Source of the DNA: Todiramphus chloris collaris
Lineage: Eukaryota > Chordata > Aves > Coraciiformes > Alcedinidae
Length of the DNA stretch: 64,000 nucleotides
Assembly (NCBI GenBank): GCA_025345505.1
Contig: JANVCC010009967.1
Coordinates: 155,832 to 219,831 of the forward strand
Reading direction: 5' to 3'
Shown: one piece after another, positions 1,560 to 36,356 of the stretch
Numbering within the stretch: position 1 is the stretch's first letter
Layout: the number at the start of each line of letters is the position of its first letter
The notes under the pieces: model-generated
Told to the model about the DNA's origin: nothing
What the model saw: the letters and a program-made list of their open reading frames with translations, nothing else
Database searches by the model: none
Position numbers and translations under genes: made by a program

Positions 1560-4500
1560 ATGGACCTTCAGTTGTTGTCTCTGAGGTTTCTCCTGGTCCT
1601 TGTAGGTCTTCTGGCAGCACAGGGCCAGGAAGAACTTGATCCGAGGGTCCAGCGAGTGCCCTGGGAAACAGGTAAGAAGTGGTTCCTCCTCTTCTCTGGA
1701 GAGATTTTGCTGGTCCTCCTGCAAGTTTGATATGCATCTTACTGCCTGCAGCCCTGGGCTGGAACCCAGGAGGACCCCTGAGGGCTATGTCAACCTGGGG
1801 ACCTGCTGCCTCTGGGAGACCCAGGGCAGGAAGCAGGAGATGTGGTGAGGTGTGGGTGCACTGGGGGTGCTGTGGGAAGGATGGGACATGCCCTGCACCA
1901 GTCCAGTTTACCAGTTGTTTCCTGCAGGCATGAATCAGGCATGATGTCATGCATCATGGATCAGAGGAAGGGTCTTCAGGGAGCAGGGCTACCACTTTCT
2001 GTAGAAGCCCTATGCCCAGGTGTGCCCAAGGAACACCGTGTCTGCTGAAAGCAGAGCAAAAGCAAACTTGCTGCCACCTTTCCAGCTGGATGGCCCTGGG
2101 CATGGGGAGTGGTGGGTGCCTGTGTGTGGGTAGGTTGTGGCTGTGTGTCAGTAGGACAGAGCTGCTGGTTGCAGTGCTCAGCTGGGCTTCTCTGATGGAC
2201 CTGATGGAGTGGGTCCAGAGGAGGGACCCAAAGATGCTCAGAGGGCTGGAGCACCTCTCCTACGAGGACAGGCTGAGGGAGCTGGGGTTGTTCAGCCTGG
2301 AGAAGAGAAGGCTCCAGGGAGACCCCCTAGCAACCTTCCAGTACCTGAAAGGGGCCTACAGGAAGGCTGGAGAGGGGCTGTTTACGAGGGCCTGGAGTGA
2401 AAGGATGAGGGGTAATGGGTTTAAATGAGAGAAGAGTAGATTTATATTGACTGTCAGGAAGAAGCTCTTTACATTGAGGGTGGTAGAAAAGTGGAATAGG
2501 CTCCCCAGGAAGCTGGCTGAGGCCCCATCCCAGGAGATGTTCAAGGTGAGGTTGGACAAGGCTCTGAGCAGCCTGGTCTAGTTGAGGGTATCCCTGCTCA
2601 CTGCAGGGGGCTGGACTAGATGACCTTCAGAGGTCCCTTCCACCCCTAGCCACTCTGTGATTCTATGCTTCTATAATTCTTGCCTTCTGCAGTCAGGGTT
2701 GTTTGAGAGCAAAGCCTGACTGTAAGTGGCTTGTTCACTAGCATGTCTGCACTTCTTTGTGGCTGCTCAGAGAATGGTCTGAACCTTGTGAGATCCCTCC
2801 TCTGACCCTTTGGGAGAAGGAAGATTGTATTTTAAGCACTTTGAGGCTTCCCAGAGCCCCTTGCAGAGGCTAGAAGTGCTCCTTCACAGGTGTCAGCATC
2901 TATGCCTGTAGGAACCATTGTCACAAAGCCTCTCCATGCAGCACTCATCAAACTTCTGGGACAGACTGTGTTTGCTCAGCCTAGAGGATGGTGAATGTGA
3001 TGAGGAGGGGATGTGGAGGAGAGAGTGCAGCTTGTGGCAGCAGAAAAGGGTCAGGGTCTGTGTTAAAGCAAGATATGTGAATGGAGAAGGCATTGCTCAT
3101 CCCTGTGTCCCACTGCACGGTGGTGTGGGAGGAGGAGAGTAGCCCAGGGACTGACTGAGCCATCACAGGGACCCCAGTGTCATCTCTGATCCCTGTGGGA
3201 GGGCTGAGCCATGGACGAAGAGACATGCATCCCAGCAGGGCTCGTGGTGACATGACTCGGCAAGGGCAGCCTGAGCTGGGGGGGTGACATGTCTGAATGA
3301 GTGGCTGGAGGAGATCTCCTAGTGCAGGGGTGATTGTCTTGGGAAGCTTCCTGCTGTGGGCTGCAGAGGAAGGAACATAACGTCCCTGCATACAAGGCTG
3401 CATGAAGGAGGTTCATTCACGCTTCAGGTGCAAAAGGAGAGCACATTCCCAACAAGAGGGAATGGCCTGAAGTTGAACCAGGGGAGGTTAGGAATATTAG
3501 GAAGCATTTCTTTACAGCAAGGGTTGTCTGGCATTGGAATGGCCTGCCCAGGGAGGTGGTGGAGTCACCATCCCTGGAGGTGTTTAAGAGGCAGTTGAAT
3601 GTTGTGCTTAGGGACATGGTTTAGTGGTTTTTGACAGGGCTAGAAGTAAGTTGATGATCCTGAAGGTCTCTTCCAGATGGAACAGTTCTATGATTCTATG
3701 ATTTTAAGTCTTGCCTGCAAGTCACATCCTGGTAGATGGATGTGTCCTATTCACTCTACTTTCTGGGGCTGAAGGGTTTGCTGGGGTTTTCTCTCCCACC
3801 ACCCACCCATGCCCCACCTCATCACCTCCCAGACCAACTAACACCCCATTTCACCTCTGCCAGAAATCTGCCAAAGGCCTCGGTGGGACACCAGTCTCCA
3901 ACTGGCACCAGACCAGGACAGTTACAAGAAGAACGAAGATGTGATGCTGAGCTGTCCTGAGGGTTTCCAGCCATCCTTCACCCACGTCAAATGTTCAAGC
4001 AAAGTCGAGTCCATCAGTCATGGGAAACCTGTATACAGAGAAGTCTGGCTTAGAAGGGACAGCGGAGGCTACTGGACCCCCATTCAGTCCCATGTGAGAT
4101 GCATTGGTAAGGGAGGCAACAGGAGGTCTCCTGGCTGCCCTGCTCTGCCCTTGCTGTGCAGGGGAAGGCAGGCTGTGCTTGCACAGGGGGTTTCAGGCTC
4201 TCTGCCTGCCTGGGGAAATGGTAGGTGCTGCTGAAAGCAGCGTTGAGGCAGCTTCTGAGACTGCCCTGAGTCCAGTGTGCTCTGAGTCCAATCCTCCTAC
4301 CAGTGAGTGGGAGGTTCTTGTTGTAGGTGTGGGTGATAAGGGCCTCCCTGAAGGCTTCTGGCAAGAGTTTGTGCACAAAGAGAAGAGAGCTATGTGTGGA
4401 GGAGCTGGTGATGTGCTTGGCATCAGAGCTGGGGCAGGATGACTAGAGGGCTCAGATGCCTGCATCCTCTCAAACCATGCAGCTCTGAGTTCCACAGCTT

Positions 4501-7500
4501 GCTCCCCTTAGACTGGTTTCCTCCAGGCTCTGTGTCATAGTAGGCACAGGATTGGCACCATCTTGTCACAGCTTGGGGCACTGAGATGTCCTCCAAGGAA
4601 GAACAGGTCAACAGTGGGCTGATTTGTGAACCCAGTGGGAAGTCCCTGAAGTTTTGAAAGCAGTCCTCTGCTGCTCCCCAGACTCACCGAGTGCCCCAAG
4701 ACCTGGGCCACAGCAAGAGCACCTGGGGCTCATTCCTGCAGCAGCTCTGAGCATGGGTAGTGTGGGGAGGTGTGTGGGAGGTAAGGGGATGTTTCTCCTG
4801 TGGTGTCTACCCCGGAACAGTTCCATGCACGGTCCAAGGTTTCAGGGTTTGCTGCCTGGCCCCTTTGGGTGCTTTCCTGACTTCACGTGGCAGACTCCTA
4901 AGGCATGAAATAACCCTGGATTCTTAGATAATGCCACACGGCAACAGGACCAGCTTATGCTCCATCAGTTTCTGTGCAGGCTTTGTGCAAAGTATGATCC
5001 CCATGTAGGTGCCCCATAAGTCCCTCAAGTTCCTACTCTTCTAGTATTTACTGGGTGGGTTGAGGGAAGCAGAATAGGGCCCTTGTTCCCCTCACCCCCT
5101 TTGGGCTTATGTGTATCAGGAGTATACACTCTGTATGGTGTCCTAGAGCTTGATCTCTTACTGGGCTGTCAGGGAAAATGAAGCTTTCCTCTGGGGACTG
5201 TGCAGAGCAGGAAAGGGCTAGATCTTTCTAGGAGCTGCATCAATTGGACTGTACAGATGCTGGCACCTACAGACCTCAGTATTGACTCATTGGGGAAAAC
5301 TGTGATGAACAATAGTAGTCCACAATTCACCCGCATTCATTGCTGTCCAGACTCTTTCTGGTCCCCTAACCAGAAAGATGAAGTAACCAGTTTCAGCCTC
5401 CACACTTCCCCTCCCACCCAGCTGGGCTGTCAGGCTGCAGCACACTTGCAAGGCTGGGGAGGGAAGGAAGTCACTCTCTCTTTTGCAATGTTTCCTTCAC
5501 AGAGGTCCTCCAGGTTGTACCCGGGACCTTGGAGACTTCCAGCACCAGCATCAAACTGAACTGGACCTGCAGGCTCCCCGATGCCTGTCAGCATATGCGG
5601 GCCATGTGCCGTCTGGCAGAGCCTTCATCCCCTACCTGTGAGGCTGAGGAGGCAAAGGGAGAGGAGATGTTACATGGCCAGGAGGGAACGTTCACCTGTC
5701 TCCATCTGCAGCCCTTCACTAACTACGATATCACCATCTCCCTGCCACCCAGCACAATCCTTTTCACATGGCTGGTCAGGACCAAGGAAACAGGTACGTG
5801 CACACAAGCAGGGGAGAGAGGAGGGACAGTCCTGGGCTTTGTCACAGCAGGTGAGTAAATGTCCTCTTCACCCAGCAGCTCAGCCTGTGTCTGCTCCCTG
5901 CTGTGATGGCCCTGGGCTCAGTGCTACTCAGGGCTTGGGCTGTGCAGGGCCCTGGGGCAGAACACATCCCCTCCTCGCCCTTCCCCACCTCACCACACCA
6001 CTGCTGCTGCTGCCGCACACGCAGCTTCTGTGGGGAACAAACCCTGACCTGGGGATCCCTCTGTGGCCTGTCCCCGGGGCCAGGAGCTGCCTGTCCTCTG
6101 CCCTGGGCTCAGCCTCTCCTCACCGCCTTCCTGCGTCACCCGTCCTCCTGTGCTTCCAGTGCCGGACAAACCGGAGAAGCTGTGGCTGGATTCCACCACG
6201 GGGTTCCTCAGGTGGCAGGCGCTGCCCTCCTGCAAAGGGGAGATCATCGGATACCAGGTACCAGGGGACCACACACTGCCTGTGGCCCCCTCCCCTTGCC
6301 AGGAGCCTGCAGCTCTGTGCAGGCGGCCTGGGTAAAGTGCGGAAGGGAAAGCAGTTTCCAGTTCCCAGCCAGGGCAGGTGAATATCTGGCTCTGATGAGC
6401 AGGAGCATTTTCTCTCTCATCCTTGATATTCCTTGTGCTCTGGAGTTGCCCAAAGGGGTGGTGGGTGCTCTCTGCCCTCTGGGGGTTGACAGTGGTTTGA
6501 TGTGCAGCACGCAGGGATGTAGCTGATGGGGGGGGGGGAGCATCCCAGGGTTTCCTGTGGCTCCTCTATGCTTTTTTTCTGGTTCCTGACACAGAGAAGC
6601 CTGTGGTTTGAATCATTCTCTCAAAATCCCTCCTTCTGGGAGAGTTGCACCATTCCTTTGAGTCTTCCTCAGCGCATGGCTTTAACTGCAGTCTCTGTCT
6701 GTGGCTTGGGGCTCTCTCCACGATACAGTCCTGCTTTCTAGCACTGAGGGAGGGGTGAGACCCTTACCAGCGTGCTATACCCTATACCCTCCCCGAAGCC
6801 AGACCTCTCTGCAGTGGTCTTCATGCCACTCTTAGCTCTTTCCTGGAGAAACCGGCAAACAGGGTCCCTGAGGACATTGTTTATGGGTGTGCTCCAGTCG
6901 GTTCCCTGCTTCCAGACACTTCTGTTCAGGAAAAGAATCCTTTTTTCCTGCTTTCAGCCGGCTCCTTTTTTGTCATATTCCCAATAGTCCATTTAACAAA
7001 CACTCTGACAGCAGTCAGAATGGCTCATGAGAAATTCAGAAGATGTATTGGGAATGAGGAGTCTCCCTCTGTCTCCCTTGTGGAAACTGTCCTCCTGTTT
7101 CCATGTAGACAAAGCCTTCAGAGACCAACCTTGCCTAGGAGGGAGAGAAGTTTGGGGCCATCTCACAGGTGATGCCAACACAGTGCCCGAGGTGGCACAA
7201 CACCAAACCGGCGACCTGGCCTCGGGCTCCTGCAGTATATACACCTCTCCAAACGAAGAGCCCCCCTCTTGCCCGCAGCCCTTCACACAGGCTTGGTCCT
7301 CTGCTCACAGAGGCGGCCGCTCCGAGTCTTGAGCGTTGGCTCCAAATCCCTCCTCTCCTGCTCTTGTCTGCCCCGAGCTCCACGCACGGATGGGCCCAGG
7401 CTGCTGCTCCCTGGGACCCTTCCACGGCTGGGGCGCGCCGAGAAGGGGAGACGTGCAGAGGGGCTCCGCTGTGTGCCGGGTGGGGCGGGCAGGTCCCCAG

Positions 7501-9887
7501 GGGGCAGGGGGCAGCTGCTGCCCTCCAGCTCTGTGCCCTGTCCCCAGCTGAACGTCACGGCCAGGAGCGCGCAGGACGGCGGCTTCCTGGAGATGGAGCG
7601 GCTGCGGCTGAGCAGCTCTGCCACGGAGCACCGGCTGCCCGAGCTCGGCCCCGGCAGCAGCCTCGCCGTGACGCTCCAGGGACTCACGGCCGCCGGAGCC
7701 GGGGCCGCGTCGCGCTGGGAGTCCCCGGCCAACAGCTCGGGTAGGGCTCGCCGTGTCCCGGGCCCCCGGCGTGCGCCCCGGCTGAGGCGGCTCCGTCCCC
7801 AGCCGCCTGCCCTGCCGCCCGGCGTCCCCCGGCCTGGGCACGAAGGAGCCGAGCTCTGGCGGCGGGCCCGCTGGCGCTGACGCTCCTGCCCGGGGCCTCC
7901 CCCTCCAGACACCCCGCACCCTCCCGGCCTCAGCTGCCGCAGCGTCCGCGACACCTCCCCATCCCAAGGGACGGCCGTGCTTCCCCTCCGCCCCATCGCC
8001 CGGCCCCACGAGCCGGCCAGGTCAGTGCAGCGCCGGCAGCTCCGCTCTCCGCGGCCCCGGGGCGGGATTCCCCCGCGCTCGCCCGCGGCCGCCCCGTCCA
8101 GCCCGCGGTCCCCGGGCCCGCGGCCCCCGGCCCTCTCACCGCCCCGGCCCGGCCCGCCCCGCCCCGCAGGGAGCTGCAGCTGCTCGTGGCCGCCACGCAC
8201 AACGGCACGGCGCTGGAAGACGCCTGCTCGGGGCAGCCGCGGCCCCCCGACGGCAGCCGCCAGCCCGGCGTCTACGTGGCCACCGTGCTCAACCTCAGCG
8301 CCGCCGCGGACTTCGTGCTGGGCGACGGGACCCGCGGGCGCGGCTACCACAACGCTGCGCTCCGCCCGGGCTGGGACTACACGGCCCTTCTGCGCCTCGT
8401 CCGCCGCTCGCAGCAGGTACCCGTCGGGGGGGCTGCCAGTCGGGGCCGCGGCCCTCGGCGGGCTCGGGCAGTGCCGCGTGGGCCGCGCCGCCAGCCCCGG
8501 CCCTGCGAGCCCGGGCACCTTGGCAGCGTGGTGGCCCCAGCGTCTCTGGCCACGACCTGGGCGTTGGGTGGCCGTGGGTGGCTTGCCCGACCTCGTCCGA
8601 GCGAGCGTGGGGCAGGAGCAGCCTGAGCTCTCCCTCCGTCTCCACCAACAGGCAGAGAAGTTCACCTGTGTCTGCTACAGCTTCTCCGTTGGTAAGTGCG
8701 CTCCAAGCTCCCTGCTCCCAAGCCTCTCTGCTGCACCTTCCCTTTCCTCTGCCTGGCCACTTCTTGTGGATAGGACCTGTCTGAGCACAGGAGCAGCAGG
8801 GTCTTGTGAGGGGCAGAGAAAAACATTTTGCATACATGGGGTGATACTCCATGCTGGAAGAATCCTAAGCCAACATACACATCTAGACACTTGCACATAC
8901 CCTTTGCCATCGTGTGGCCATTCGCAGAATGTGGTCCAGGCTGTGGCACCCACTCTTGGCTATGTGTTAATTGCAGGGCAATCTCCAGGATCGTGGCATG
9001 GGACTATAATTGGGGTGGTTGTTCTGTTGGCAATCCTTCTTGTGTCTGCAGGGATCCTCTGGTTTGTGCTTTCCAGGTAAGTAGTGAGGGGGCAGGTTCA
9101 TCAGGGCCATGGTCAATGCCTGCATCTTACTCGGGACTCTGCTTTTCCTTTCCAGGAAGTGGAAGTCTTTGCCTAGCAAAGCTAAGGCGGATAATCAAAA
9201 AGGTAGGAAAATACAATTCCCTCATCCACCATCACAGATGGGGCTGTAGGTCTTGGTGGTGGCTAGGAGGAGAGCAGATATCTCTCAAGAGAAACATCTG
9301 CTCATCCTCGTCACTGACACATCTTCCCATTTGCCCTAGCCATGTGGTGCTGGGGATGGTCTAGATGGCTCTGCCTGCTGAGCCTACGTGGTAGCAAAGT
9401 TTATCTTCAGGGAGTTCTCCCAGCCTGCAGCAGGGGCAGTGGGAAGCAAAGACCGGGCATCCCAAAGGGTGGATTATGGCTCAGCAACTCAGGGTCCCAT
9501 GGCCATGTCACCCCCCCCTAGGGGAGAGATCTGCTGGGAGGGCTCTCAGGAGTGTCAGCCTGAGCGATTGCTGCTCTCACCTGGGCACTGCAGGGCACTT
9601 CCAGGGACTTGTGGTTGAGCACAGCTGAGATGAAGAGGTTGGGCTGTGGCAGGTACTGTCCTGTGCTCCAGCCTGTCTCAGGCACTTGTGTGTGCAAGCA
9701 GCTGCGGTGGTGTCCGTTCCTCGTGCAGCCAAGGACATGCAGCAGCTTCTGAGTGCCCTTGGTCTTCACAGGTGATGGTGGCCAGGCTGGAGATCAGTCA
9801 CTCCAGCCCCTGCCCAGGGACACAGGAGACATTCAGAGCAGTGAGGGAACAGAGAAGATGGGGAGGATGACCCCAGCTCCATGCTAA
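1560..9887 (+). CDS. Gene A: phosphatase-less sushi/fibronectin III receptor related to type IIB RPTPs
   Basis: Eleven exons splice in phase with GT-AG borders and no internal stop: 1560-1671, 3864-4106, 5503-5793, 6160-6257, 7548-7740, 7909-8020, 8170-8416, 8652-8691, 8977-9076, 9156-9202 and 9772-9887, giving 532 residues. Residues 1-22 are a signal peptide; 38-118 one sushi-like domain (four Cys, Trp before the last Cys); 119-215 and 216-312 fibronectin III-like; about 313-445 correspond to the membrane-proximal part of PTPRM-type receptors; 454-477 are the membrane helix, with no charged residue. The tail (479-532) has no tyrosine and hence no ITIM, ITAM or phosphatase. The outside is nearly identical to gene B over exons 3-8. 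Likely a decoy or competitor of gene B, or a ligand-type molecule. The start follows from the signal peptide and from homology with gene B exon 1 (both end ...ETG at the same splice phase). Exon calls are from reading, not transcripts. Confidence 0.8.
2190..2680 (+). repeat. CR1 LINE 3' fragment
   Basis: Typical avian CR1 3' sequence in intron 1 of gene A: the end of the ORF2 tail (GGCTGGAGCACCTCTCCTA), the GGAAGAAGCTCTTTAC block, the GGACTAGATGACC block, and an end at TTCTATGCTTCTATAATTCTT. It is 5'-truncated, as most avian CR1 copies are. Confidence 0.9.
3445..3705 (+). repeat. CR1 LINE 3' fragment
   Basis: A short CR1 3' end (AAGCATTTCTTTACAGCAAG, AATGGCCTGCCCAGGGAGG, ATTCTATGATTCTATGATTTT) lies just upstream of the sushi exon of gene A. 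It belongs to a different CR1 subtype from the copy at 2190, having the 'GGGACATGGTTTAGTGG' block. Confidence 0.9.
3864..4106 (+). other. Sushi-like exon of gene A
   Basis: This 243-base phase 1-1 exon encodes 81 residues beginning [10 protein letters not shown]. It has the layout of a complement-control (sushi) module: Cys near the start, LSCPEGF, a third Cys in THVKC, a Trp and a last Cys shortly before the splice site. It is closest to gene B exon 5 (27563-27805), from which it differs at about seven residues, most of them charge-changing (S/R, H/R, R/E, TP/IT). The flanking intron upstream (about 3745-3863) is also closely similar; the downstream intron diverges after about 18 bases. Confidence 0.8.
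5340..8810 (+). repeat. Inverted segmental repeat, arm 1 (gene A ectodomain)
   Basis: This arm is nearly identical to the reverse complement of 23722-27165. From about 6560 to 8430 the two align without any indel (coordinates add to 32474), and the introns are as alike as the exons; sampled stretches of 50-80 bases are identical. From 5503 to 6381 the coordinates add to 32507, with a 33-base length difference between 6381 and 6526. Similarity ends at about 8808, in the intron before the membrane exon. Confidence 0.9.
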
Positions 9888-10335
9888 TTTCTGATGGTCC
9901 CCCTGGTTCTCCTGTGACTGTGACCAACACTGTGGGTCCCATTCAGTTCATCAGAGCAAGAGAGAAACGAGAGGCCAGCGATGGTTGTGAGCTTTTCCTT
10001 TCCTCATCCTGTTCACCTCCAAGCTTTCACTTACTGCTGGTTTAGGTCTTTGAATGTGACTTTCTGTAGTTCCTTTTTTTTTTTTTTAAATTTCACTAGT
10101 CTTTGCTTTAAGTTTTTCATTCCTGGAAGCTGGAACATCAGGTCTCCCAGTACCTTCCTCACACAGGCTCAGGCTGAGGAACGGTCCATGCTCATGCCAT
10201 GTCATAGGTTCCCAACCCCTGTCCCCACTCTGTCTGCTGATACTTATCTAAACCCAGGGCTCTGCTGGAGCATGGCCCAACTGGGCTGCCTTGGTGAGCC
10301 TGCCTGGACAGTCAATAAAGGCTTGTGGCTTGGAG
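9888..10335 (+). other. 3' UTR of gene A
   Basis: After the TAA at 9885-9887 there is about 430 bases of non-coding sequence, including a T-run at 10073-10087, ending in AATAAA at 10314-10319 and a GT-rich stretch (GGCTTGTGGCTTGGAGG) that suits a cleavage site. The terminal block resembles the one at 401-440. Confidence 0.6.
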
Positions 10336-10661
10336 GTGGCTGCCTGTCCTACTACAGCTGCCGACTGGTCCCCTCATTGCCCTTGTGGGGTCACATCCTC
10401 CTGCAAGGAGCTAACTATGCCTTGTTGAGGGGAGGCTGTGACGGATGCACTCAACGGCCCTTAACCAAACCAGTAGCAGTTTGGTACTGGCTTCAAAGGA
10501 GCAAAAGGCCTGAGCCATAGCCAAGCCAAGAACTCCTCTAGGAAGCCCACAAAGGAGCAGAACAAAGAAAAACAGTTGTGGGTACAAGGAGTCTTGTGCA
10601 AACCTCTCCCATTGTATGCAGTTGGGTTACAAAACAACCATTCTATCCCATAAATATAATC

Positions 10662-12935: not shown

Positions 12936-13049
12936 ACAAATCTTCTTTTTTGGCCAACACTGTGGCCAGAACTGAGGGACCTGTGTGCTCTTAGCTCCTT
13001 TGTATCCCCTGTGCCAGGTCACACCTGGAAGAAAAGTAAGGATTGAGAT

Positions 13050-22800: not shown

Positions 22801-25800
22801 TGGAGCTGTCACTTTCCCCATGCCAGCCAGCTCTGATCCCCGTGTTCCTGTAAGGACCTTACAGAGCCTGTAAGCACCCTGCCTGTGCTTTTAACAGCAG
22901 CCTGTCCAGACATGGCACGAAGGGCCTCTGCTCATACTGCACCTTCTCGACACCTCCGCAGGGCGATAGTGTTGCTGTTCTCCAGGGGTTTTGAACCATT
23001 GTACTTTCGCCTGCAAAACAGCAAGTCAGGTCCATAGACCAGCGGAACAGAGAGACAGAGAAGAGGCTGCTGCTCACGTAGCAGCCCTGCCTCCCATGTT
23101 GCTTTATTTCAGGGTCCACTTGGACACTCCCTGGCAGTGCAAGGTGCTGAATGCCTCACAGACAGTAGGAGAGGTGAAGCATATACTGACCTGAAGAGCA
23201 CAAAGAGAAGCAAAATTCCCAGCGCCAAAAGTACAATGACCAGAGCTACTGCCAACAGCACAGGCATCCAGTCCTGCAGAGGCACTGTCTTCTGTTCTGC
23301 AACCAGCAAAACCCAGACTCAGGCTCCTGAACAGCCTGAATCAGGCATCAGGGGATGTCAGAGGGGCAGGGAGTGAAAAACAGCTTCCTTCCAAACTACA
23401 GGCTTTGCATTGGAGAATATGTAAGCTGGTGCAGAAGTAAGTACTTGGTTGGTGTGACAGCCTCCAGCATGGGCTGTGTCTTCCTGACTGCTCCAGGCAC
23501 AGCCTTCTGAGATGTTTGTATTTCTGGGGTTACAGACACACAAGGCAGTGCTAGGACTAAGATACAAGATGTGACGATGGCAGGCATCATGAATATTGTC
23601 CAGCTGCCATTGGTATCACATTTGTACAAGAGTCCTGAGGTAGCTCAAAGCCCATCTACCACAGACAACCTCAAGACCCAGAGAATGTCCATGAAGATGG
23701 AAGTAGGACAATGAGACCTCACTGCTCCTGTGCTCAGACAGGTCCTGTCCACAAGAAGTGGCCAGGCTGAGGAAAGGGAAAGTGCAGCAGAGAGGCTTGG
23801 GAGCAGGGAGCTCGGAGCGCACTTACCAAGGGAGAAGCTGTAGCAGACACAGGTGAACTTCTCTGCCTGTTGGCGGAGACGGAGGGAGAGCTCAGGCTGC
23901 TCCTGCCCCACGGCTCCCTCGGACAAGGTCGGGCAAGCCACCCACGGCCACCCAACGCCCAGGTCGCGGCCAGAGACGCCGGGGCCACCACGCTGCCAAC
24001 GTGCCCGGGCTCGCAGGGCTGGGTCCCTGCAGGACTGGCAGCCCCCCCGACGGGTACCTGCTGCGAGCGGCGAACGAGGCGCAGAAGGGCCGTGTAGTCC
24101 CAGCCCGGGCGGAGCGCAGCGTTGTGGTAGCCGCGCCCGCGGGTCCCGTCGCCCAGCACGAAGTCCGCGGCGGCGCTGAGGTTGAGCACGGCGGCCACGT
24201 AGGCGCCGGGCTGGCGGCTGCCGTCGGGGGGCCGCGGCTGCCCCGAGCAGGCGTCTTCCAGCGCCGTGCCGTTGTGCGTGGCGGCCACGAGCAGCTGCAG
24301 CTCCCTGCGGGGCGGGGCGGGCCGGGCCGGGGCGGTGAGAGGGCCGGGGGCCGCGGGCCCGGGGACCGCGGGCTGGACGGGGCGGCCGCGGGCGAGCGCG
24401 GGGGAATCCCGCCCCGGGGCCGCGGAGAGCGGAGCTGCCGGCGCTGCACTGACCTGGCCGGCTCGTGGGGCCGGGCGATGGGGCGGAGGGGAAGCACGGC
24501 CGTCCCTTGGGATGGGGAGGTGTCGCGGACGCTGCGGCAGCTGAGGCCGGGAGGGTGCGGGGTGTCTGGAGGGGGAGGCCCCGGGCAGGAGCGTCAGCGC
24601 CAGCGGGCCCGCCGCCAGAGCTCGGCTCCTTCGTGCCCAGGCCGGGGGACGCCGGGCGGCAGGGCAGGCGGCTGGGGACGGAGCCGCCTCAGCCGGGGCG
24701 CACGCCGGGGGCCCGGGACACGGCGAGCCCTACCCGAGCTGTTGGCCGGGGACTCCCAGCGCGACGCGGCCCCGGCTCCGGCGGCCGTGAGTCCCTGGAG
24801 CGTCACGGCGAGGCTGCTGCCGGGGCCGAGCTCGGGCAGCCGGTGCTCCGTGGCAGAGCTGCTCAGCCGCAGCCGCTCCATCTCCAGGAAGCCGCCGTCC
24901 TGCGCGCTCCTGGCCGTGACGTTCAGCTGGGGACAGGGCACAGAGCTGGAGGGCAGCAGCTGCCCCCTGCCCCCTGGGGACCTGCCCGCCCCACCCGGCA
25001 CACAGCGGAGCCCCTCTGCACGTCTCCCCTTCTCGGCGCGCCCCAGCCGTGGAAGGGTCCCAGGGAGCAGCAGCCTGGGCCCATCCGTGCGTGGAGCTCG
25101 GGGCAGACAAGAGCAGGAGAGGAGGGATTTGGAGCCAACGCTCAAGACTCGGAGCGGCCGCCTCTGTGAGCAGAGGACCAAGCCTGTGTGAAGGGCTGCG
25201 GGCAAGAGGGGGGCTCTTCGTTTGGAGAGGTGTATATACTGCAGGAGCCCGAGGCCAGGTCGCCGGTTTGGTGTTGTGCCACCTCGGGCACTGTGTTGGC
25301 ATCACCTGTGAGATGGCCCCAAACTTCTCTCCCTCCTAGGCAAGGTTGGTCTCTGAAGGCTTTGTCTACATGGAAACAGGAGGACAGTTTCCACAAGGGA
25401 GACAGAGGGAGACTCCTCATTCCCAATACATCTTCTGAATTTCTCATGAGCCATTCTGACTGCTGTCAGAGTGTTTGTTAAATGGACTATTGGGAATATG
25501 ACAAAAAAGGAGCCGGCTGAAAGCAGGAAAAAAGGATTCTTTTCCTGAACAGAAGTGTCTGGAAGCAGGGAACCGACTGGAGCACACCCATAAACAATGT
25601 CCTCAGGGACCCTGTTTGCCGGTTTCTCCAGGAAAGAGCTAAGAGTGGCATGAAGACCACTGCAGAGAGGTCTGGCTTCGGGGAGGGTATAGGGTATAGC
25701 ACGCTGGTAAGGGTCTCACCCCTCCCTCAGTGCTAGAAAGCAGGACTGTATCGTGGAGAGAGCCCCAAGCCACAGACAGAGACTGCAGTTAAAGCCATGC

Positions 25801-28800
25801 GCTGAGGAAGACTCAAAGGAATGGTGCAACTCTCCCAGAAGGAGGGATTTTGAGAGAATGATTCCAACCACAGGCTTCTCTGTGTCAGGAACCAGAAAAA
25901 AAGAATAGATGAGCCACAGGAAACCCTGGGATGCACCCCTCCCCCATCAGCTACATCCCTGCGTGCTGCACATCAAACCGCTAAGTCTGTCAACCCCCAG
26001 GCAGAACAGAGGTGGGGAGGATGCCCAGAGGGCAGAGAGCACCCACCACCTCTTTGGGCAACTCCAGAGCACAAGGAATATCAAGGATGAGAGAGAAAAT
26101 GCTCCTGCTCATCAGAGCCAGATATTCACCTGCCCTGTCTGGGAACTGGAAACTGCTTTCCCTTCCGCACTTTACCCAGGCCGCCTGCACAGAGCTGCAG
26201 GCTCCTGGCAAGGGGAGGAGGCCACAGGCAGTGTGTGGTCCCCTGGTACCTGGTATCCGATGATCTCCCCTTTGCAGGAGGGCAGCGCCTGCCACCTGAG
26301 GAACCCCGTGGTGGGATCCAGCCACAGCTTCTCCGGTTTGTCCGGCACTGGAAGCACAGGAGGACGGGTGACGCAGGAAGGCGGTGAGGAGAGGCTGAGC
26401 CCAGGGCAGAGGAGAGGCAGCTCCTGGCCCCGGGGACAGGCCACAAAGGGATCCCCAGGTCAGGGTTTGTTCCCCACAGAAGCTGCGTGTGCGGCAGCAG
26501 CAGCAGTGGTGTGGTGAGGTGGGGAAGGGCGAGGAGGGGATGTGTTCTGCCCCAGGGCCCTGCACAGCCCAAGCCCTGAGTAGCACTGAGCCCAGGGCCA
26601 TCACAGCAGGGAGCAGACACAGGCTGAGCTGCTGGGTGAAGAGGACATTTACCCACCTGCTGTGACAAAGCCCAGGACTGTCCCTCCTCTCTCCCCTGCT
26701 TGTGTGCACGTACCTGTTTCCTTGGTCCTGACCAGCCATGTGAAAAGGATTGTGCTGGGTGGCAGGGAGATGGTGATATCGTAGTTAGTGAAGGGCTGCA
26801 GATGGAGACAGGTGAACGTTCCCTCCTGGCCATGTAACATCTCCTCTCCCTTTGCCTCCTCAGCCTCACAGGTAGGGGATGAAGGCTCTGCCAGACGGCA
26901 CATGGCCCGCATATGCTGACAGGCATCAGGGAGCCTGCAGGTCCAGTTCAGTTTGATGCTGGTGCTGGAAGTCTCCACGGCTGTGGGGTCAACCTGGAGG
27001 ACCTCTGTGAAGGAAACATTGCAAAAGAGAGAGTGACTCCCCTCCTGTCCACTCCCTTCCCTGTCTTGCAAGTGTGCTGCAGCCTGACAGCCCAGCTGGG
27101 TGGGAGGGGAAGTGTGGAGGCTGAAACTGGTTACTTCATCTTTCTGGTAGGGGGCCAGGAGGAGTTTGTTGTCATAGTGTGCTCAGAAGCTGGATGTCAC
27201 CATTTGGGAGAGGTTCACCAGTGAGAAAACTGCCCCCATTTATTTAAAGTTCAGGACATGGCAAGAGGAATAGATGGAACTGCAAGACAGTGTGTCTCCA
27301 GCTGGACTACCTCACAGCTTACAGGGAGCTAACTAGGTATTCTGCCCTCACACCCTCTGAGGGTTGTCATTGCAGTCATCCTTAGGTGTCAGGGGAGAGC
27401 ACAATAGGACATATTTCATCGTGGTCTTGAAAGAGCTGCTTCCACCGTCATCGACCTCACAGCACTGGCCCCAAGGGAAAATCACGTCTTTCCCATGTTG
27501 GCTCTCACACAGACATGCCCTGCCCCTGCAAAGGACTATCATGCTCCCGTTGCCTCCCTTACCAATGCACTCCACCCTGGACTGAATGGTGATCCAGTAG
27601 CCTCCGCTGTCCCTTCTAAGCCAAACTTCTCTGTATACAGGTTTCCCATGACTGATGGACTCAACTCTGCTTGAACATCTGACATGGGTGAAGGATGGCT
27701 GGAAACCCTCAGGACAGCTCAGCATCACATCTTCGTTCTTCTTGTAACTGTCCTGGTCTGGTGCCAGCTGGAGTCTAGTGTCCCACCGAGGCCTTTGGCA
27801 GATTTCTGGCAGGGGTGAAATGGGGTGTTAGTTGGTCTGGGAGGTGATGAGGTGGGGCATGGGTGGGTGGTGGGAGAGAAAAACCCCCAGCAGCCCCTGA
27901 AAAGAGAGTGAGGGGGACACATCCATCTGCGAGGACATTACCCATAGACAAGGCTTGTTTGGAGGGCACTTCTCCTTGTTCATCTATGAACCTTCTCAAT
28001 CCACCCACTTTTGTCCATGGACATTCTTAGCCAGTTCCCACAGCCTCAAGCAGGGAGGTTCCCACCTTGTCTCCCCCTCCCAGTTCCTCTGAGCACTGAG
28101 TTGCCTGTGTGTGGCCATCCCCACACTCAGCACAGCTCTGACCCTGCCTGGGGCAGGCCCACATACCCATTACCTAAGGAAGTACATTGCTTTTCCACCA
28201 GGTACATCCCCACAGCCTCCAGTCTCCATGCCAAGGACTTTCCCAGCACCAGCACTCAGGGCTCCCTTCAGTCCCTTCCCCTTCACCTTCTGGGGTTGCA
28301 AGAGATGTCCCCAGGTTCCCTAACCTGCATGGGCAGGCAGGCAAGCAATCAGACCTGTGCACTCTTGGGAGGAACCTGGAGGCACAGCATGAGCCAGGGC
28401 ACCTCTGTGGTCATCTCAATGCTGCCCCTGGATCCTGCCCTAGGGCCTGTCACCCATCTGCAGGGCCCAATGCTTGGGCTGCTCAGGAAATGCTACAGGA
28501 GATGCCTGTAGCTGCCTGGCTGGCCCTTGCCTCCTGGATGGACTGCCCTCTTCAACAGTTTGCACAGGCAACACAGCACCAAGGAGGGACTGTGGTGTGG
28601 CTGCAGCTTGGCCAGGCAACTTCACAACTGGCCATCAAGGGTGAAGGTAGAGATGAGACATGGAAATCTGCTGCTGCTTCACTTACCAAGACACCCTACA
28701 GCCCCCTCAATGCGTATCCAGGCATCTGTGCTGTCCCTGCCCCACCAGGCACCTCGGTAGACTGGTTTTCCATAACTCATTTTCTCAAATTCCATTGTAC

Positions 28801-31800
28801 ATATGATGCTACGGAAGGATGGCTTGCGATCTCCATGGCAGATCAGTCTCAATTCTTCATTCATTTGATAATTTTTTTTGTTTAGTGGAGATGGAAGTCG
28901 AAACCGCTGTAATTTTGGGCACTTTCCTATCAGGGAGAAAAAGTGAAATTCCTTCTTGGGGACGGGATGATCAGGCAAGAGAAGGACTAAGGCTTTGCCA
29001 TGATTGACTGTGGAGTCAACATTCAACACCATAAGAAAACCCAAGGGACCCCAGCTGCAGGAAAGGAGCATGTGCCTGGTGCAAGGTGGTGATACAGAAC
29101 AAAGGGAAAAAGATGAACTGAGGACCAGGATCTGGCCTCCTCCAACTTCTTTATGTTCTGCAACCCAGGAACAGGCTGGGAGGAGATGCAGAGACTTTGA
29201 GAAAACCTGTTCTGCATTGAAGGCTTCTGTCACTCCCCATCTTAGAGACTGCTCCTAGCTGGGGCCTGTCTCTAAACTGTGGCCAAGTCATCTCATGGAT
29301 ACAGCAGGAAGTCCAGAGTCCCTTCTTGGGGAGAAGCATGTGTAGCAGGGGTGACCTCCTGCTTCCCCACTTACCAATGTTGCAGGTCAGATTCTTTGCC
29401 ACCCCATGCCATGTTCCCAGAGGGTCCTTCACTTCCCAAGCATCCTTCCAACCTGAAGACATCTCTCTTGCACATCTGATCACAGCAAGGGGAGGAAAGT
29501 CCTTGCTTATGCAGCTCAGCGTTACCTCTTCATTGAGTCCATAAAACTCCTGCTCTGGAGTAAAGTGGAGCTGCCTGTCCCACTGGGGCTGCCGACATAT
29601 CTCTGCACAGAGGAGAAGAAGGAGCAGGTGTAAGCAGGATGGGAAAGGGCTGCTGTGTGGTCTATTGCCCTGATTTGGAAACTGTCCAGCTACTTTGGCT
29701 ACCACATTCAACTCCAAATCCCTCTCTTTCAGCCTAGATCTGAGTTCAGGATGGCAGCAAACCACCCCAAAAGCAGTCCCATCTGTCCCTACAGATGTGT
29801 CAGGTTCCCCATTCAGGCTCCATCATGGTAAGGCTGATCAGGGACTGAGTGAAGGCTCTAGCCTTCACACAGAGGTACTTCCATTCCCGCCACCTCAGCC
29901 ATATGCCCAGGTGCTGTTTGAAGGCATGGTTCTTACAGTAGTTCCCAGTGCCAGGACACTTTTTCCTGTCTTTGAATTTCTCCCAAGGAGCACAGAACCC
30001 AGTAGCTGCTCACAGCAAGGTGCTGAGACAAAAGGGTCTGTGGCACTGCCAGGACAGGAGGGAAAGTCAAGGCATCGAGGTCTCCAATTCCTGGACTGTC
30101 ACCCAGGTGGGGCTGAAGCACGAGCATGTCACAGAGGGTCTGTCACCAGCTCAGGACACTGAGGTTGAGGTGATGCAGGGCTGTGCTTACCATTACAGGT
30201 GGCAGTCCCGTTCCACGAGGCCTGGGTCCCGATGGAAATGCATCTGATCTGGGGCACCGATGGCACCAACTCCTCCCCAGAACAGCTCAGCTGCACCAAA
30301 TCGTTCAAGGCGTAGCTGCTCTGGTTGGGGGTAAACTGCAGCTTGGGGTCCCAGTCAGAGGGAGCTTTACATCCTCCTGTGTGCAAAGGCCATGAAGGAG
30401 AGCCCTGAGGATCACTGGGCTCTGGGGGTGTCCTCAGGGGTGAGGAGGCCCCATCCAGAGGGGTGCTGGTCCCCCTCACTTCATAGGAGTGGCAGAGGTG
30501 AGCACCTCCCAGGATGAGGCTCCAGACCCCAGGTGAACTAACCCTTCTTGAACCCTCAAGTGCAGTGCAGGAGGGTTACCCGCAGGCCCCCTGCCCACCC
30601 ATGTGCTGCGGAGGGATCCCAGGCAGAGGATCCAGCAGCCTGGTGGATGCTGCTCTCTCCTGTGCTCCATCCCCCAAAAGATGTGGGCTGGGGCAGTGCA
30701 CCAGCCGCAGTGAGTCTCTTCTGCCATTGCACACCACCCAACCTGGCCTCACAATGCAGCTGACAGCACCAACAGCCTGCCCTCAGATGTCCATGTCTAC
30801 ATTCTGCAAAGCTCACACCCCCTCTGTGCACCTAGCCTTTTCTCTGCACTTCACCCAGAATGATCCTGCCTTGTCCTACCCTGGCAGACATATCACCCAG
30901 ACTTGCTCACCCAGTGCAAACTGACCCCATAAGGAGTCATCAGGGTAGGAGGTGCCCTCTCCTAAATTAGGATTAAACACCTCTCTTCAGCTACGTGAAT
31001 CTCTAGAGCTGCCCACTTCCTACCAGCCAGCACTTGTGGGGCTGGACTTCCTTACAGTGGAACAGGGCCATCACCATGCTTCCCTTACCCGCAGGCCCCC
31101 TGCCCACCCATGTGCTGCGGAGGCATCCAGCAGCCTGGTGGATCACAGAATTGTAGAATCATAGAATGATTTGGGGGTTTGTTGCTCTTCCTTTTAACTG
31201 CTTCCATACCTCCTGGTAGCTATTACAGTCCACTCAGTGACACAAACCCCCCTGGCAGCACAGGACACAGCAATCTGCCGACCAGGAAATGAGGAGGAAA
31301 AGAGAAATTCTCTTCTGCATGCAACCTGCTGACAGACGTTCAGATTTCTAGAGATATCTGGGACAGATTGTCTTCCAAGAAACACTGATGCTCTGCTGGC
31401 AACGGTGGTTGCAGCTGTATACCAGAGTTCTGCCTTGCTCCCAGCCCTCCTTAAGCCTTGCACCGAAACTTCTAGTGCCCTTCATGTAGCAAAGCATTTG
31501 CTTCTGATACAACCCTGAATGAACATTTCTAGAGGTTTCTGGTGCTTCCTTACAGAGGTCGGGGTAATGCTTTGTTTATAAAGGCCACATCTCATGGCTG
31601 CTGCTTTAGAAGTGTAATAAAGTGCAGACTTACTGTAGCACAAAGGAGAATTAGTCTTTGTTTAAAGTTCTTGGTATTTTTTTTTTTCCTAAAAGGTGAA
31701 TGTTCTGCACACTGCAATTAGGCATATTCAGCATTATACTAATTATCATTGACAGGCACTTTGGGTTGATTCAGCCTTTCCCTTAATTATGGTCAGCTCA

Positions 31801-34800
31801 CTGAAGTACAAGTACATAGATTCAGTGTAAGGCTTCTGGGATGGAAGTGGGTATGCAGGGATCTCTCAGAATGAGCTGTCACAACAGCCACGCATTTCTA
31901 ACTACACTGGCCACCTCCATCAGGACTATCAGCCCTCATCCTTTGCCAGAAACATCAGCATCTTTTCCATTTTCTTTTTTTTTTTTTTAGGTGAAAAGGG
32001 TCTGGCAGAGGCATAGTTTTGCTCCAGGGCTTCTCAGTCCTGTTGTTGGTGTCTGGTGGAAGGAAGTGGCAGGATGCTGCTGTAACCCAGTGTGACTTCC
32101 AGTGGTATCAGCCAAGGTCAGATGGCTGAATTGTGCTTCTGTGAAGACAGAATGTGTATCAGCGGTGTCTTTTTGCCCATGTCTGTCCTGCTGGCACAAG
32201 GACTACACCAGCAGGCAGTCCTGCAGGCAAACCCTCTTGCTCTATCCTTGCACAGAGCCCCTTGCAAGCACCAGCACTGGAGAAATGAAGCCGTGACTGA
32301 TTTGTGCAGTCGAGATGCACAGGCTGGGGGGAACATCTCTGTCCTCTCCCTTTCTTACACGCCTTCCCCAATCAATCTAACATTTGCCATGGAAAGAGTG
32401 CTCCTTGGAGCAAAGTAGCTTTTGCTCTACTCTAGGCTGTCTGTTCGTGTGTTTTGGTGGTGGCCCTGGGAAGCTGTATGGCACATGTGAGTCAGAGGGT
32501 GTTGGATCTTCACCAGGCTGGAGCTCAATGCTTGTGCAAAGCAGACAGATGCACATGCCTATGAATGAGGGAACAGGGCACTTTTGGAGAGGGGAGGGTG
32601 CTCAGAAGAAAAGGTAAAGAAACACTCATCTTCCAGCCTTCTAGGGACTACCAGCATCTGGGAGAATAAAGGAACAGTCATCAGACACTGGTTTTTACCC
32701 TTTACTGTAGTATGCAGAGTCACCCACAGGCCCTCCGCCCCCAGCCATAGGAAAGAGTCTGAGATAAGTGAAATTTCAGCATGCAAAATACTGTGCACAT
32801 CTTGTAACGTGCGATGTGTGCTCGCTGCAAAACGGAAAATGCTGAATGCCTAGGTGAGAGTGGTAACAAAAGGTTATTCTATCTGCCTCATATAGTCACA
32901 GATTAACTGTTACACTATTTTTTTTCCAGTTGATGTTATTAAATGAATACCCTCCTTGTTAATATTGTTTAATACTCATAAATACGGAAAGCATTTTACA
33001 GAAATACCTGGACTGCCTGTCCCTGCTGCAAAGGAGTTATGAATCTGACAGGCAAAACAAAGCCTCAGCATGCCCCAGAAGCAGATGTCGGGTAGCATCA
33101 GAAGAGAAATAGCTATGCTGGTAATTCAGGTCAAGCTCCTGGGTTCAGCCCTTTGCTTACCAGCAAAAGATGTACTTTCTTACATTGTATTATCCTATAG
33201 ACAAAGAATAAAACACACGGTTTAAACCTAAGGAGCAGCAGGCAAAGCCCAACCCTTTTCCCATGGCAGCTCAGCAGCTAACAGAGGTGACAGCAAAGTG
33301 CACTGGAGTCTTGCTGAGTTTGATGCTCTGTGCTCGATGAGAGGAGCTAAGAAAAGCAAACACCATTTCCACCAGTGGAGAGTCATATTGCAAGCCACTG
33401 AGAAGACACACAGATAAACAATGGCACTTTAGCCTGTACTGCTCTGCCATGCAGGAGGGCATCTAACAGGATTTTAAGAACAGGAGGTGACATACTTTTT
33501 TTCCTGAACGTGCTCCAGGAATGGAAACCAGGAGCATGGTGATGTACACAGTTCACAGCGCCAGGGGTGTCAAGCCTGAAAACACTCCTCTGCAGTATCT
33601 CGGTGTTTGTGTTGCCCACAGGATTTACAATATGCACGGTTTGGAATCCAAGCCCCACTGACATAATCCTTTCAGATTGATTGCAGCCTTATTTTACCTA
33701 GCCCCTTTCTATGTACTGGGCATTGCAGCTACACTACTTAGGCCTCCTTGTCATCTGCAATTAAATCACTTCAGAATATCAAGCAAGGCTGATGAGAAAC
33801 GGGCCAGGGACAGCCTGCACCACAGACCGTGTCTCTGCAGGGAAAACATCCCCTAGAAGTTTCTCCACCTGCCTCCCAGGGCACTGGGCCTGTAAGGGAA
33901 TGAGGCTTTCTTACAGGTACAGAAGCTCAGTGGAGAGAAAAATCCCTGTAAGAACAGCACAGCAAGACAATAAGGTGACAATAGGACAGTGAGACAATGC
34001 ACCCTGATCAGCACACAGTGCTCCCGTGATGGGGTGAGCAGAGCAGCAGTGCTCTGCTGGCACACACTTGCACCATGTGCACCGACCACATCCTCTGCCT
34101 GCGGCTTCTCTGCTCTTCCCTGGGCTCCCAGCAGCACCACATGTGCCCTCAGCTCCTGCCCAGAGTTGGAACATGGCTCTGCCATCTCTCCTCACTTCCT
34201 CAGCAAGTCCTGGGCCCCATGGCCCATGGCCCTTCCCCAGAATTACTGCCATTCCTGCGTATTTTCAGGATCTGGTGCTGCCAGTGCTCAGTGTTGGAGT
34301 GGGACAGGGTCAGGGGGGGAAGCTGGTTCAATGATTTGGGGACACAGCAGCCCTACTGAGTGTGGACAGACCCACACTGCTTGGTGAGTGCCTAGAAGGG
34401 GACAGCAATGTGCAGTGGGAGCAGCTTGTCTGCTGTCCCCACTGGGCCATTTCCTCTCCTCATCTGTACATTACATTTGCCACAGTCATGGGAGATGCTG
34501 AGGGATCCCCAGTAAGGAAAACCCTTGAGTCATGTCCCCATCTCTGCCCAACAGCTTTACCCTGCCCAGTTGCCACTGTCTGCTCTACAGGGATGGGAGA
34601 GACCTTCCAGCCCCATCCTGGATGCCCCACACGTCCTGTCCCTCAATGAGAAAAGGCCCCATATCCACCAGGTGTGGACCTCGGCACAGGTCCCAGGATG
34701 GGACGAGCCCCCATGCTGAGGATACAGGCAGGGCTGCCCGCACTGCTGGGTGTGACTGCTGAATGTTTTTTGTCTTGCTTCCTCTTTTCACAAACACCAA

Positions 34801-36356
34801 GGTGCAAACTCAGCAATACCATCTCTGCTGCAGGCAGCTCCAGGCTGCTCCAGGGGCAGCTGGGTGACTGAGATGTGCAGCACGTACCAAAACTCTGTCG
34901 ACCACCAGGTCCCCTCTGTGTCCCAGCACACACAGTACAACCAGGTCCTGGCCTTAGTGTGCACTGTGCAAACAAACTGAAGAGCCACCCAATGTGTGGG
35001 CATGGTTGCATATGCTGGCCTGGAAGGACAGCTTCAGTGAGGGATCTGTGCTGGAGATACCCTCTGTTACAGGTTTAGCCCTTGATTTTTGAGTGGCTGT
35101 GCGCTGTGCTTGTGATCCCTGCGCATTTCGCCTGGGAATGCACTCCTGTGGCCCATACCATTAGGAAAATAGAACATTAGGAAATTTTCTTTGCATCTTA
35201 GGAAAAATTTCTTCACTGAAAGGGTTGTTAAGTACTGGAGCAGGCTGCCCAGGGAACTGGAGGAGTCACCAACCCTGGAGATATTTAAAATGTGTGTAAA
35301 TGAGGTACATTGTTTAGTGTTGGACTTGGCAGTGGTGGGTTAGTCATTGGACTCATGATCTTAAAGGTCTTTTCCAACCCAAGCAATTTTATGATTCTTT
35401 CATGCAGTATAGACTCTACTGTCACTTCACATCAGCAACTAAATATCCTGGTCCCATTCCCTGGCCTCTGTCATAGCCAGGGTTCATAACCAGCAGGTTT
35501 CTCTAGCCTGTGTCAGCCCAGACACATTCCTGCAGTGGACTGGGACAACATGATTTTATGCTAGTTTAATGATTTTTATCACCTAGCTTCAGCAAGATTG
35601 GTTTAGAGAAGTACTCTGATTCAGATGGGTGCAGAGCAGCTGAAGGTCACAGCCCCTGGACCTCAGACAGCACAGACCCCTAGGAGGTCAGATAAGTGTG
35701 AGCCTGCAGATATCCACAGACTGACTCTGCTGGAATGGATGTGTGCAGCCTGCATAGGAAGAGTCCTGCAGAGTCCTGGGTGTGCCCTGGACTTCCAGCT
35801 CCAAGGATTCCTATTAAAGAGCTATCCCAGCACATCTTAACTTCTGCCCACTAGGATCTCCTTGACACAGAGGTGCTCAGCTGTCAGCTTCCCAGGTCTT
35901 CGCTGAGCACCAGCACCCATCTCCACCCCGGCGAGGACATAGCATCTGCACACTGTGCAAAGAGAGATGGCCACCACATGCTCCCAGGAACACTGCCCAC
36001 CCCGAGGAGGAACATTATGGCCCCTGCAGAAGCTTTCCCAGCACAAGGAGGTTTGCTGCCCTCCACCAGCAAACAGCTTCACTCCACCACAGTCCAACTA
36101 ATGCTCGAGTGTCTTGGGACCTGCTACGGACATCAGATGCAGTCCTCTGTCGTATCGCTACTGCATCCCGCACGCGGTGAAGATATGCACCAGACTTGCA
36201 CCAGGACAACTGCGAAACCTTCTCTTGCGGGCAGAGGAGTGAGCACTTCTTACCTGTTTCCTGGGATTCTCCGGAGGTCTCAGTGTCTGTCTCTTCCCCC
36301 TCCTGTGTTGCCAGAAGAGGTGTGAGGAGCAGGAGAAATGTCCATCGCAGGGACAT
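13890..36356 (-). CDS. Gene B: sushi/fibronectin III receptor tyrosine phosphatase, type IIB-like
   Basis: Twenty-nine GT-AG exons join in phase to 1320 residues: 36356-36254, 30376-30191, 29602-29375, 28926-28687, 27805-27563, 27004-26714, 26347-26250, 24926-24734, 24565-24454, 24304-24058, 23866-23827, 23296-23191, 23010-22943, 22657-22515, 22379-22292, 21691-21621, 21219-21183, 20425-20328, 20138-20022, 18968-18811, 18732-18597, 18040-17891, 17715-17616, 17072-16993, 16540-16406, 15947-15822, 15020-14863, 14597-14462 and 13964-13890. Order: signal peptide; four sushi-like modules (35-333); fibronectin III-like domains (334-527); membrane-proximal domain with PTPRM-like spacing (528-660); membrane helix 673-695; juxtamembrane acidic segment; phosphatase D1 (about 767-1050); D2 (about 1052-1320). 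D1/D2 joins and the C-terminal [13 protein letters not shown] (PTPRM has FCYEVALEYLNS) place it with PTPRK/M/T/U. MAM and Ig domains of that family are absent, replaced by sushi-like exons. It would remove phosphate from tyrosines at the plasma membrane. Substrate and ligand unknown. Confidence 0.85.
15311..15561 (+). repeat. Direct repeat, copy 2 (gene B intron)
   Basis: Partner of 13500-13740, in the intron between exons 15947-15822 and 15020-14863 of gene B. It has a CAGCTTCCTGAGCAAG stretch in the middle that copy 1 lacks; the same word occurs at 14037-14052. Confidence 0.85.
16084..16123 (+). repeat. Short tandem repeat, three units of 14 bases
   Basis: CCATTTGCTGGGGA is repeated twice exactly and a third time in part, in a gene B intron between exons 16540-16406 and 15947-15822. 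Confidence 0.8.
17891..22379 (-). other. Catalytic phosphatase domain D1 of gene B
   Basis: Eight exons (22379 to 17891) hold a complete PTP domain. Visible landmarks: phosphotyrosine loop KNRY with Tyr790; DYINASYVD; the FIAAQG segment; DFWQMIW and [14 protein letters not shown]; the WPD loop WPDHGVP with the general acid Asp922; the P-loop [11 protein letters not shown] with nucleophile Cys955 and Arg961; and the Q-loop region MVQTKEQYIF. The P-loop codons are split by the intron between 18811 and 18732. Everything needed for catalysis is present, so D1 should be active. Confidence 0.9.
23722..27165 (-). repeat. Inverted segmental repeat, arm 2 (gene B ectodomain)
   Basis: Reverse-complement partner of 5340-8810, about 15 kb away. 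A further similar piece without full continuity covers the sushi-like exon and its upstream intron (27545-27930 against 3745-4126); between the two pieces the introns differ in length and sequence. Confidence 0.9.
23827..27004 (-). other. Fibronectin III-like and membrane-proximal ectodomain block of gene B
   Basis: Six exons (27004-26714, 26347-26250, 24926-24734, 24565-24454, 24304-24058, 23866-23827) encode residues 334-660. The first is a one-exon fibronectin III-like domain ([18 protein letters not shown]). The next two together form a second one ([17 protein letters not shown], then LNVTARS). The last three align with the membrane-proximal part of [25 protein letters not shown] against the family's NGYWNTPLLPYKSYRIYFQ, and KFTCVCYSF against KIDCVQVA. 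Exons from 24926 to 24058 and their introns are extremely GC-rich. The whole block is almost the same as gene A 5503-8691. Confidence 0.8.
27563..30376 (-). other. Four tandem sushi-like exons of gene B
   Basis: Exons 30376-30191, 29602-29375, 28926-28687 and 27805-27563 are all phase 1-1 and of 186-243 bases, so they can be gained or lost without breaking the frame. Three share a pattern: Cys-x-x-P/Q-x-W-D near the start, then a P-x-Q-x-x-Y segment, N-E/D-x-V-x-L-S-C, I/V-R-C, a Trp and a final Cys. The module from 28926 is the most diverged (starts GKCPKLQRF; lacks the WD pair but keeps LIC and the final Cys). The pattern fits complement-control modules, though loosely. They probably bind the ligand. 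Tandem origin by exon duplication is likely. Confidence 0.75.
30576..31143 (+). repeat. Short direct duplication flanking about 440 bases
   Basis: The segment 30576-30647 (TTACCCGCAGGCCCCCTGCC onward, ending CAGCAGCCTGGTGGAT) recurs at 31085-31143 with a 14-base deletion. Confidence 0.75.
31143..31180 (-). repeat. Tiny CR1 3'-end remnant
   Basis: TCACAGAATTGTAGAATCAT followed by AGAATGATTTGGGG is the reverse complement of a CR1 tail. It begins exactly where the second copy of a short local duplication ends. Confidence 0.6.
35165..35402 (+). repeat. CR1 LINE 3' fragment
   Basis: A diverged CR1 3' end: AAAATTTCTTCACTGAAAGG, CAGGCTGCCCAGGGAACTGG and the tail ATTTTATGATTCTTTC. It is in intron 1 of gene B. 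Confidence 0.85.

Follow-up and report, generated by a model that had tools for sequence, protein, structure and literature searches.

What keeps part of the ectodomain nearly identical in two receptor genes whose signaling ends differ, and does that likeness serve the pair? The question is raised by two intact genes lying tail to tail beside RUSC2 in the window, the whole 64-kb stretch of DNA analyzed here. Gene A (1560..9887, plus strand; ATG at 1560, stop at 9887) has 11 exons encoding 532 residues, and gene B (13890..36356, minus strand; ATG at 36356, stop at 13890) has 29 exons encoding 1,320 residues. Every intron has GT-AG ends, and the frame is kept throughout with no stop, which bears out the first-pass annotation in its description of two in-phase genes that look like working ones.

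Homology and synteny identify A as Trojan and B as Mystran, two members of the avian Trojan family. A shares 67% identity with the chicken protein P0051 (494 residues) across 92% of A, and B shares 64% identity with chicken P0181 across 98%; 494 residues is the length given for chicken Trojan by Petrov et al. (2015, PMC4372362). The same report maps the family to chicken chromosome Z, flanked by RUSC2 and TESK1, with Mystran first and then, on the opposite strand, Trojan and Thracian (PMC4372362). The window follows this family layout, with RUSC2 as the neighbor and Mystran and Trojan facing each other tail to tail on opposite strands. RUSC2 spans 45262..62165 on the minus strand and was recognized by an SH3 exon (45262-45474; SH3 domain match), a piece at 46589-47626 that matches RUSC1 (1e-7) and Iporin (PDB 6if2, E 2e-17), which we take to be RUSC2, and a large ORF at 60162-62165 without a family match. 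On the side where Thracian and TESK1 are expected, the window shows only an A-like 3′ end at 394..483 (plus strand, cut by the window edge). It is identical to A 10307-10396 in 70 of 94 columns (74%, E 5e-8), and the neighbor just left of the window is thus likely to be another member of the family, either Thracian or a second Trojan.

The first-pass annotation knew of no description of this layout; it is the Trojan/Mystran pair of Petrov et al. (2015, PMC4372362), alike in order and orientation by RUSC2, domain plan, phosphatase versus short tail, and conversion. That two such receptors may compete for one partner was also proposed there (PMC4372362). With the pair and the competition idea already in print, the finding as first given is no discovery. 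What is added here is the species-wise conversion of A residues 119-447, the CpG islands, the patch around W208 and the probable stop loss in the tail of A. Petrov et al. was the only report on this family that we found in literature, little of it from subscription journals, on the family or on phosphatase paired receptors.

Three further features of the locus were observed. A 29-base element containing GAGGAAGCCTC, which we take to resemble a PU.1 site, precedes both genes (1387-1415 and 36487-36515, 25 of 29 bases matching) at roughly 150 bases 5′ of each start codon. A direct repeat of 250 bases (92%) links 13503-13744 in the B 3′ region with 15315-15565 in a late B intron. Between Mystran and RUSC2, gene-like plus-strand reading frames occur at 41707-43063, possibly the remnant of a small neighbor gene; Pfam yielded no convincing family for the four right-hand ORFs.

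The Trojan gene begins with exon 1 (1560-1671) and a CCP-like exon 2 (3864-4106), continues through exons 3 (5503-5793), 4 (6160-6257), 5 (7548-7740), 6 (7909-8020), 7 (8170-8416) and 8 (8652-8691) to the membrane exon 9 (8977-9076), and closes with exons 10 (9156-9202) and 11 (9772-9887); an AATAAA lies on its 3′ side near 10314. A Pfam search found no phosphatase in A. At E 0.1, fn3 was matched in both A and B and Sushi (CCP) in neither, the latter being matched in chicken Mystran P0181; the Mystran CCP fell below threshold in Petrov et al. too (PMC4372362). BLASTP aligned A to B with 400 of 448 residues identical, membrane segment included. The near identity claimed for the two ectodomains holds over A residues 119-447 (97.3% identity to B) but not beyond, as B possesses three CCP-like modules more than A and the signal-peptide exons share only 73% of their DNA.

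The minus-strand Mystran gene encodes a signal peptide, four CCP-like modules, as against the one of the described chicken Mystran (PMC4372362), an FN3-like block and a membrane segment. Pfam found two Y_phosphatase stretches, D1 in exons at about 22379-17891 and D2 at about 17715-13890, on the minus strand. D1 keeps WPD and a 10-residue motif, both of recognized catalytic meaning in protein tyrosine phosphatases, so that the two phosphatase domains with an active-looking D1 described at first pass are borne out at the level of predicted motifs. D2 carries WPI, TCWDGASRSG and a degenerate KNRY loop and is thus probably inactive. The earlier assignment to type IIB fits the catalytic half only: by bit scores alone, D1 is closest to PTPRK/M/T/U (best single-domain chains PTPRK 269, PTPRT 265 and PTPRM 260 bits, against 239 for PTPRS D1), with D2 nearest PTPRA and PTPRS. 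In contrast to type IIB ectodomains, B gave no MAM or Ig match in Pfam at E 0.1, and Fn3_PTPRU, which matches one turtle and one kiwi homologue, matched neither A nor B. A fair reading is that Mystran would descend from a type IIB-like gene while standing outside type IIB itself.

What, then, accounts for the likeness between A and B? The FN3-like exons and stalk of A (5348..8804, plus strand) form an inverted repeat of 3.5 kb with B 27168-23714 (the block 23714..27168, minus strand), 96% identical with introns included and far beyond chance. Within it, A 6843-8092 matches B with 0 mismatches over 1,250 aligned bases, exons 5 and 6 are 100% identical, and introns 3-6 are 99.2-100% identical. 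Identity drops to 95% in intron 7, 90% in intron 8 and 73-83% around the membrane exons, which themselves are 73-81% identical; on the other flank, exon 2 stands at 95% and exon 1 at 73%. Since the introns are as alike as the exons, the likeness argues for copying rather than protein-level constraint. The base differences between A and B are even in direction (19 versus 18), and so provide nothing for GC-biased repair there.

Measured in 500-base bins, each arm of the converted block in this window carries a CpG island of 1 kb, at 7501..8500 on the plus strand in A exons 5-7 (GC 0.78-0.81, CpG o/e 0.78-0.99) and at 24001..25000 on the minus strand in B exons 8-10 (GC 0.78-0.80, CpG o/e 0.76-0.96). 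The remaining bins examined have GC of 0.43-0.62 and o/e of 0.00-0.27, with 0.38-0.45 in the shoulders beside the islands, and GC3 is ~0.94 in the island exons versus 0.52-0.88 in other measured segments. Birds lack PRDM9, recombine near CpG islands and keep stable hot spots (PMC5519329); judged from the window DNA, the likely engine of copying would thus be a hot spot fixed within the coding exons. These same observations feed a serious rival, a conversion hot spot without selection: a CpG-island hot spot in two inverted copies would homogenize them mechanically and repeatedly, the match would have no selected role, and Trojan would act apart from Mystran. The overlap of the identity peak with the CpG island and the equal match of introns and exons are what this reading expects.

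The very high identity, together with an apparently lost stop codon in A, could also suggest that A is a duplicate in decay or that misassembly produced the match. Against this speak the frames, open across 11 exons in A and 29 in B, the different flanks, the single contig and the full-length relatives in many birds, as does chicken Trojan, which was cloned as a cDNA and whose protein is found at the cell surface (PMC4372362). Given the open frames and the relatives, a pseudogene or artefact is an unlikely source of A or B, and we regard decay or misassembly as highly improbable.

Across birds, we compared predicted proteins, with Trojan/Mystran pairs made by hand from species present in both match lists (the Trojan list being the best 120 of 271). 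In 27 of 31 pairs from the matches listed, ostrich to songbirds, Trojan and Mystran of one species were more alike over A 119-447 than either was to its best same-gene counterpart in any other species. The first pair set had given 25 of 29, before Lonchura and Hirundo were added; the Hirundo Mystran covers part of the block. The pairs that failed came from two parrots (Ara, Guaruba) and two eagles (Harpia, Morphnus). Morphnus, with a truncated Trojan row, and AnasPlat, with a Thracian-like membrane segment, were kept in the identity tests and omitted from the per-region, patch and FastTree counts; the Harpia and Anomalospiza Trojan rows are without a membrane segment. Setting these four aside, 25 of 27 pass, the exceptions being Ara and Guaruba.

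Trees led to the same picture. All 13 complete pairs in the careful tree (12 species plus the window) were sisters, the window pair at 100/100; four further rows in this tree stood without a partner that the cutting pattern had missed. With FastTree and 27 pairs, sisters numbered 25 for residues 119-447, 27 for 249-390, 21 for 119-180 and 13 for 181-216. Fifteen of the 27 pairs are identical over 249-390, and these are the pairs without a support value in the FastTree core. The membrane segment behaves in the opposite manner: its median identity in the 27 pairs is 33% within species versus 62.5% (Trojan) and 66% (Mystran) across species, and in 0 of 27 does the within-species value rise above the Trojan-Trojan median. 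For the CCP adjoining the block, the best cross-species Trojan identity is beaten in 9 of 29 pairs only. With a block that is species-specific and membrane segments and tails that are gene-specific, gene conversion keeps renewing the match; recurrent copying of the membrane-proximal block between Trojan and Mystran has taken place in most birds examined.

GC-rich exons are known to be lost from bird assemblies. Petrov et al. found Mystrans (87%) and Trojans (63%) mostly in separate clusters (PMC4372362), and the use of whole proteins with conserved phosphatase domains, along with older assemblies losing GC-rich exons, may account for the difference from the trees above. In Table 2 of that report, conversion links Mystran to Trojan in five birds, namely duck, crow, chicken, ground finch and hoatzin (corrected P 0.02-0.24), and Trojan to Thracian in two, duck and cuckoo, at corrected P values of 0.09 and 0.12 (PMC4372362); the conversion seen here extends to many more birds than those five Mystran-Trojan cases. 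Thracian was not homogenized in our five comparisons (four within species, one within a genus; 73.5-78.1%, against 67.5-93.6% for Thracian across species), and its ectodomain, as read from the sequences, ends without the stalk, in line with a purely mechanical process. Against such a process stand borders that are sharp at the membrane exon in every examined species with a Trojan-type segment, and a block that changes fastest between species: over residues 249-390, with the 27 pairs pooled, within-species differences are lowest (0.45-0.69%) and cross-species Trojan differences highest (30-35%). A small patch that escapes in many birds also argues against it. Weighing both sides, we regard homogenization without a selected role as a real possibility, short of probable.

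That patch lies within residues 181-216, where Trojan and Mystran differ by 15% within species, between better matched stretches on either side (27 pairs). Around W208 the two genes stay different in 17 of 27 species; W208 is present in the Trojan of 26 of 27 species and in the Mystran of 10 of 27, and Y206 in the Mystran of 14 of 27 and the Trojan of 2 of 27. At A residues 206-213, many birds set a Trojan-type LFTWLVRT against a Mystran-type LYxRLLRT in an otherwise homogenized block. The Mystran of the window carries the Trojan form of the patch, which suggests that Trojan was the donor and Mystran the recipient. The patch may be under selection or may simply have been passed over by conversion tracts.

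The genes part again at their cytoplasmic ends. Provided exon 11 is used, the last 54 residues of A, read from the translation, are without tyrosine, in agreement with the tail described at first pass. Where most Trojans end, in exon 10, the codon following ADN in A is CAA, and the reading frame continues into exon 11. Among the best 120 of 271 Trojan-like proteins listed, 56 end ~14 residues past the membrane, 12 have an ITAM, three rows from two songbirds continue beyond the common end point, and the remaining 49 are of other kinds or incomplete. A therefore departs from the usual short tail as a variant, with no reason to exclude it from the family, and its 54-residue tail looks like a lineage-specific extension and not a family hallmark. 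Exon 11 resembles the end of crane Thracian (59% over 32 residues, E 2e-6) and that of Zosterops P0044 (74% over 23 residues), and the shag protein model P0049, inspected by eye, apparently joins the same two exons in another frame. The first-pass annotation proposed to look for the tail exon in other birds; a search for the tail with 85 residues matched 9 of 98 candidate proteins, each over about half of that length and all short-tailed, and returned no second copy. The songbird Trojans P0044, P0054 and P0060 have altered or extended ends, which suggests that the exon 10 stop was lost more than once. Judging by the protein letters, Q in A and L or E in songbirds would each be one base from TAA. 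In this one assembly, the long tail of A is probably a recent, lineage-specific stop loss into an exon resembling the last exon of Thracian.

Could Trojan instead signal through a tail of its own, basic and with serine motifs and here of the longer Thracian type, so that the pair would have two active outputs? MAPK, 14-3-3 and PKA motifs are predicted in chicken Trojan (PMC4372362), and the Thracian-like exon 11 would fit. The tail without tyrosine does not, nor does the membrane segment, in which no charged residue was seen by eye; the ITAM-like pattern Y..[LI].{6,12}Y..[LIV] was absent from the three plus-strand frames of window positions 1-12000, and a tail of ~14 residues is found in 56 of the 120 relatives counted above. 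Own-tail signaling is, in our estimate, improbable.

From these observations, a model of a matched pair can be put forward. Mystran, a phosphatase, and Trojan, without an enzyme, would constitute a receptor pair whose membrane-proximal faces match, and the CpG island would act as a lasting conversion hot spot. Trojan would tune Mystran either by association in cis or by competing for whatever partner the FN3/stalk region has; since the CCP beside the block is homogenized in a minority of birds only, a membrane-proximal or cis contact seems somewhat more probable than a distal ligand in common. In chicken, macrophages have the highest RNA of all three genes (PMC4372362). The paired-receptor reading of the first-pass annotation, with a layout and a competition idea already in print and dimerization as its other proposed route, fits a near-identical part of the ectodomain, different signaling ends and a likeness kept by conversion, and concerted evolution across birds supports it more strongly than the window alone. 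That Trojan modulates Mystran through the shared, conversion-renewed block, with loss of the usual stop codon and gain of a longer tail in this species, is a proposition on which we are evenly divided. More tentatively, the arrangement may be bird-wide, with sharply bounded conversion at a stable coding-exon CpG island matching the fastest-changing part of the ectodomain, and the patch at 206-213 (W208 in Trojan) held different so that the two faces are distinguishable; the result could be a self-matched cis module tuning leukocyte phosphatase signaling.

By analogy, the nearest evolutionary parallel is SIGLEC11/SIGLEC16 of primates, in which the ectodomain-coding region was reported as converted in every primate examined and the signaling ends differ (PMC5701461). 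Those receptors are lectins of the Ig type whose outputs are inhibitory and activating and whose class of ligand is known, and the converted part includes the ligand-binding domain (PMC5701461); Mystran, by comparison, has its own phosphatase and Trojan no known output. A second parallel lies with CEACAM1-type paired receptors. These differ in having ITIM and ITAM tails and no phosphatase domain. Their activating and inhibitory members are described as coevolving (PMC2832619, PMC5112662).

For the Trojan family, the membrane-proximal block has been recently copied in most birds tested and the membrane and signaling parts have stayed separate, which amounts to a natural experiment. The shared block points to a place at which to seek contact between the two receptors, and tests for selection or co-evolution on Trojan and Mystran may give misleading results if they leave conversion out of account. 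Two explanations stand opposed here, a recombination hot spot fixed in avian coding exons and selection for matched receptors.
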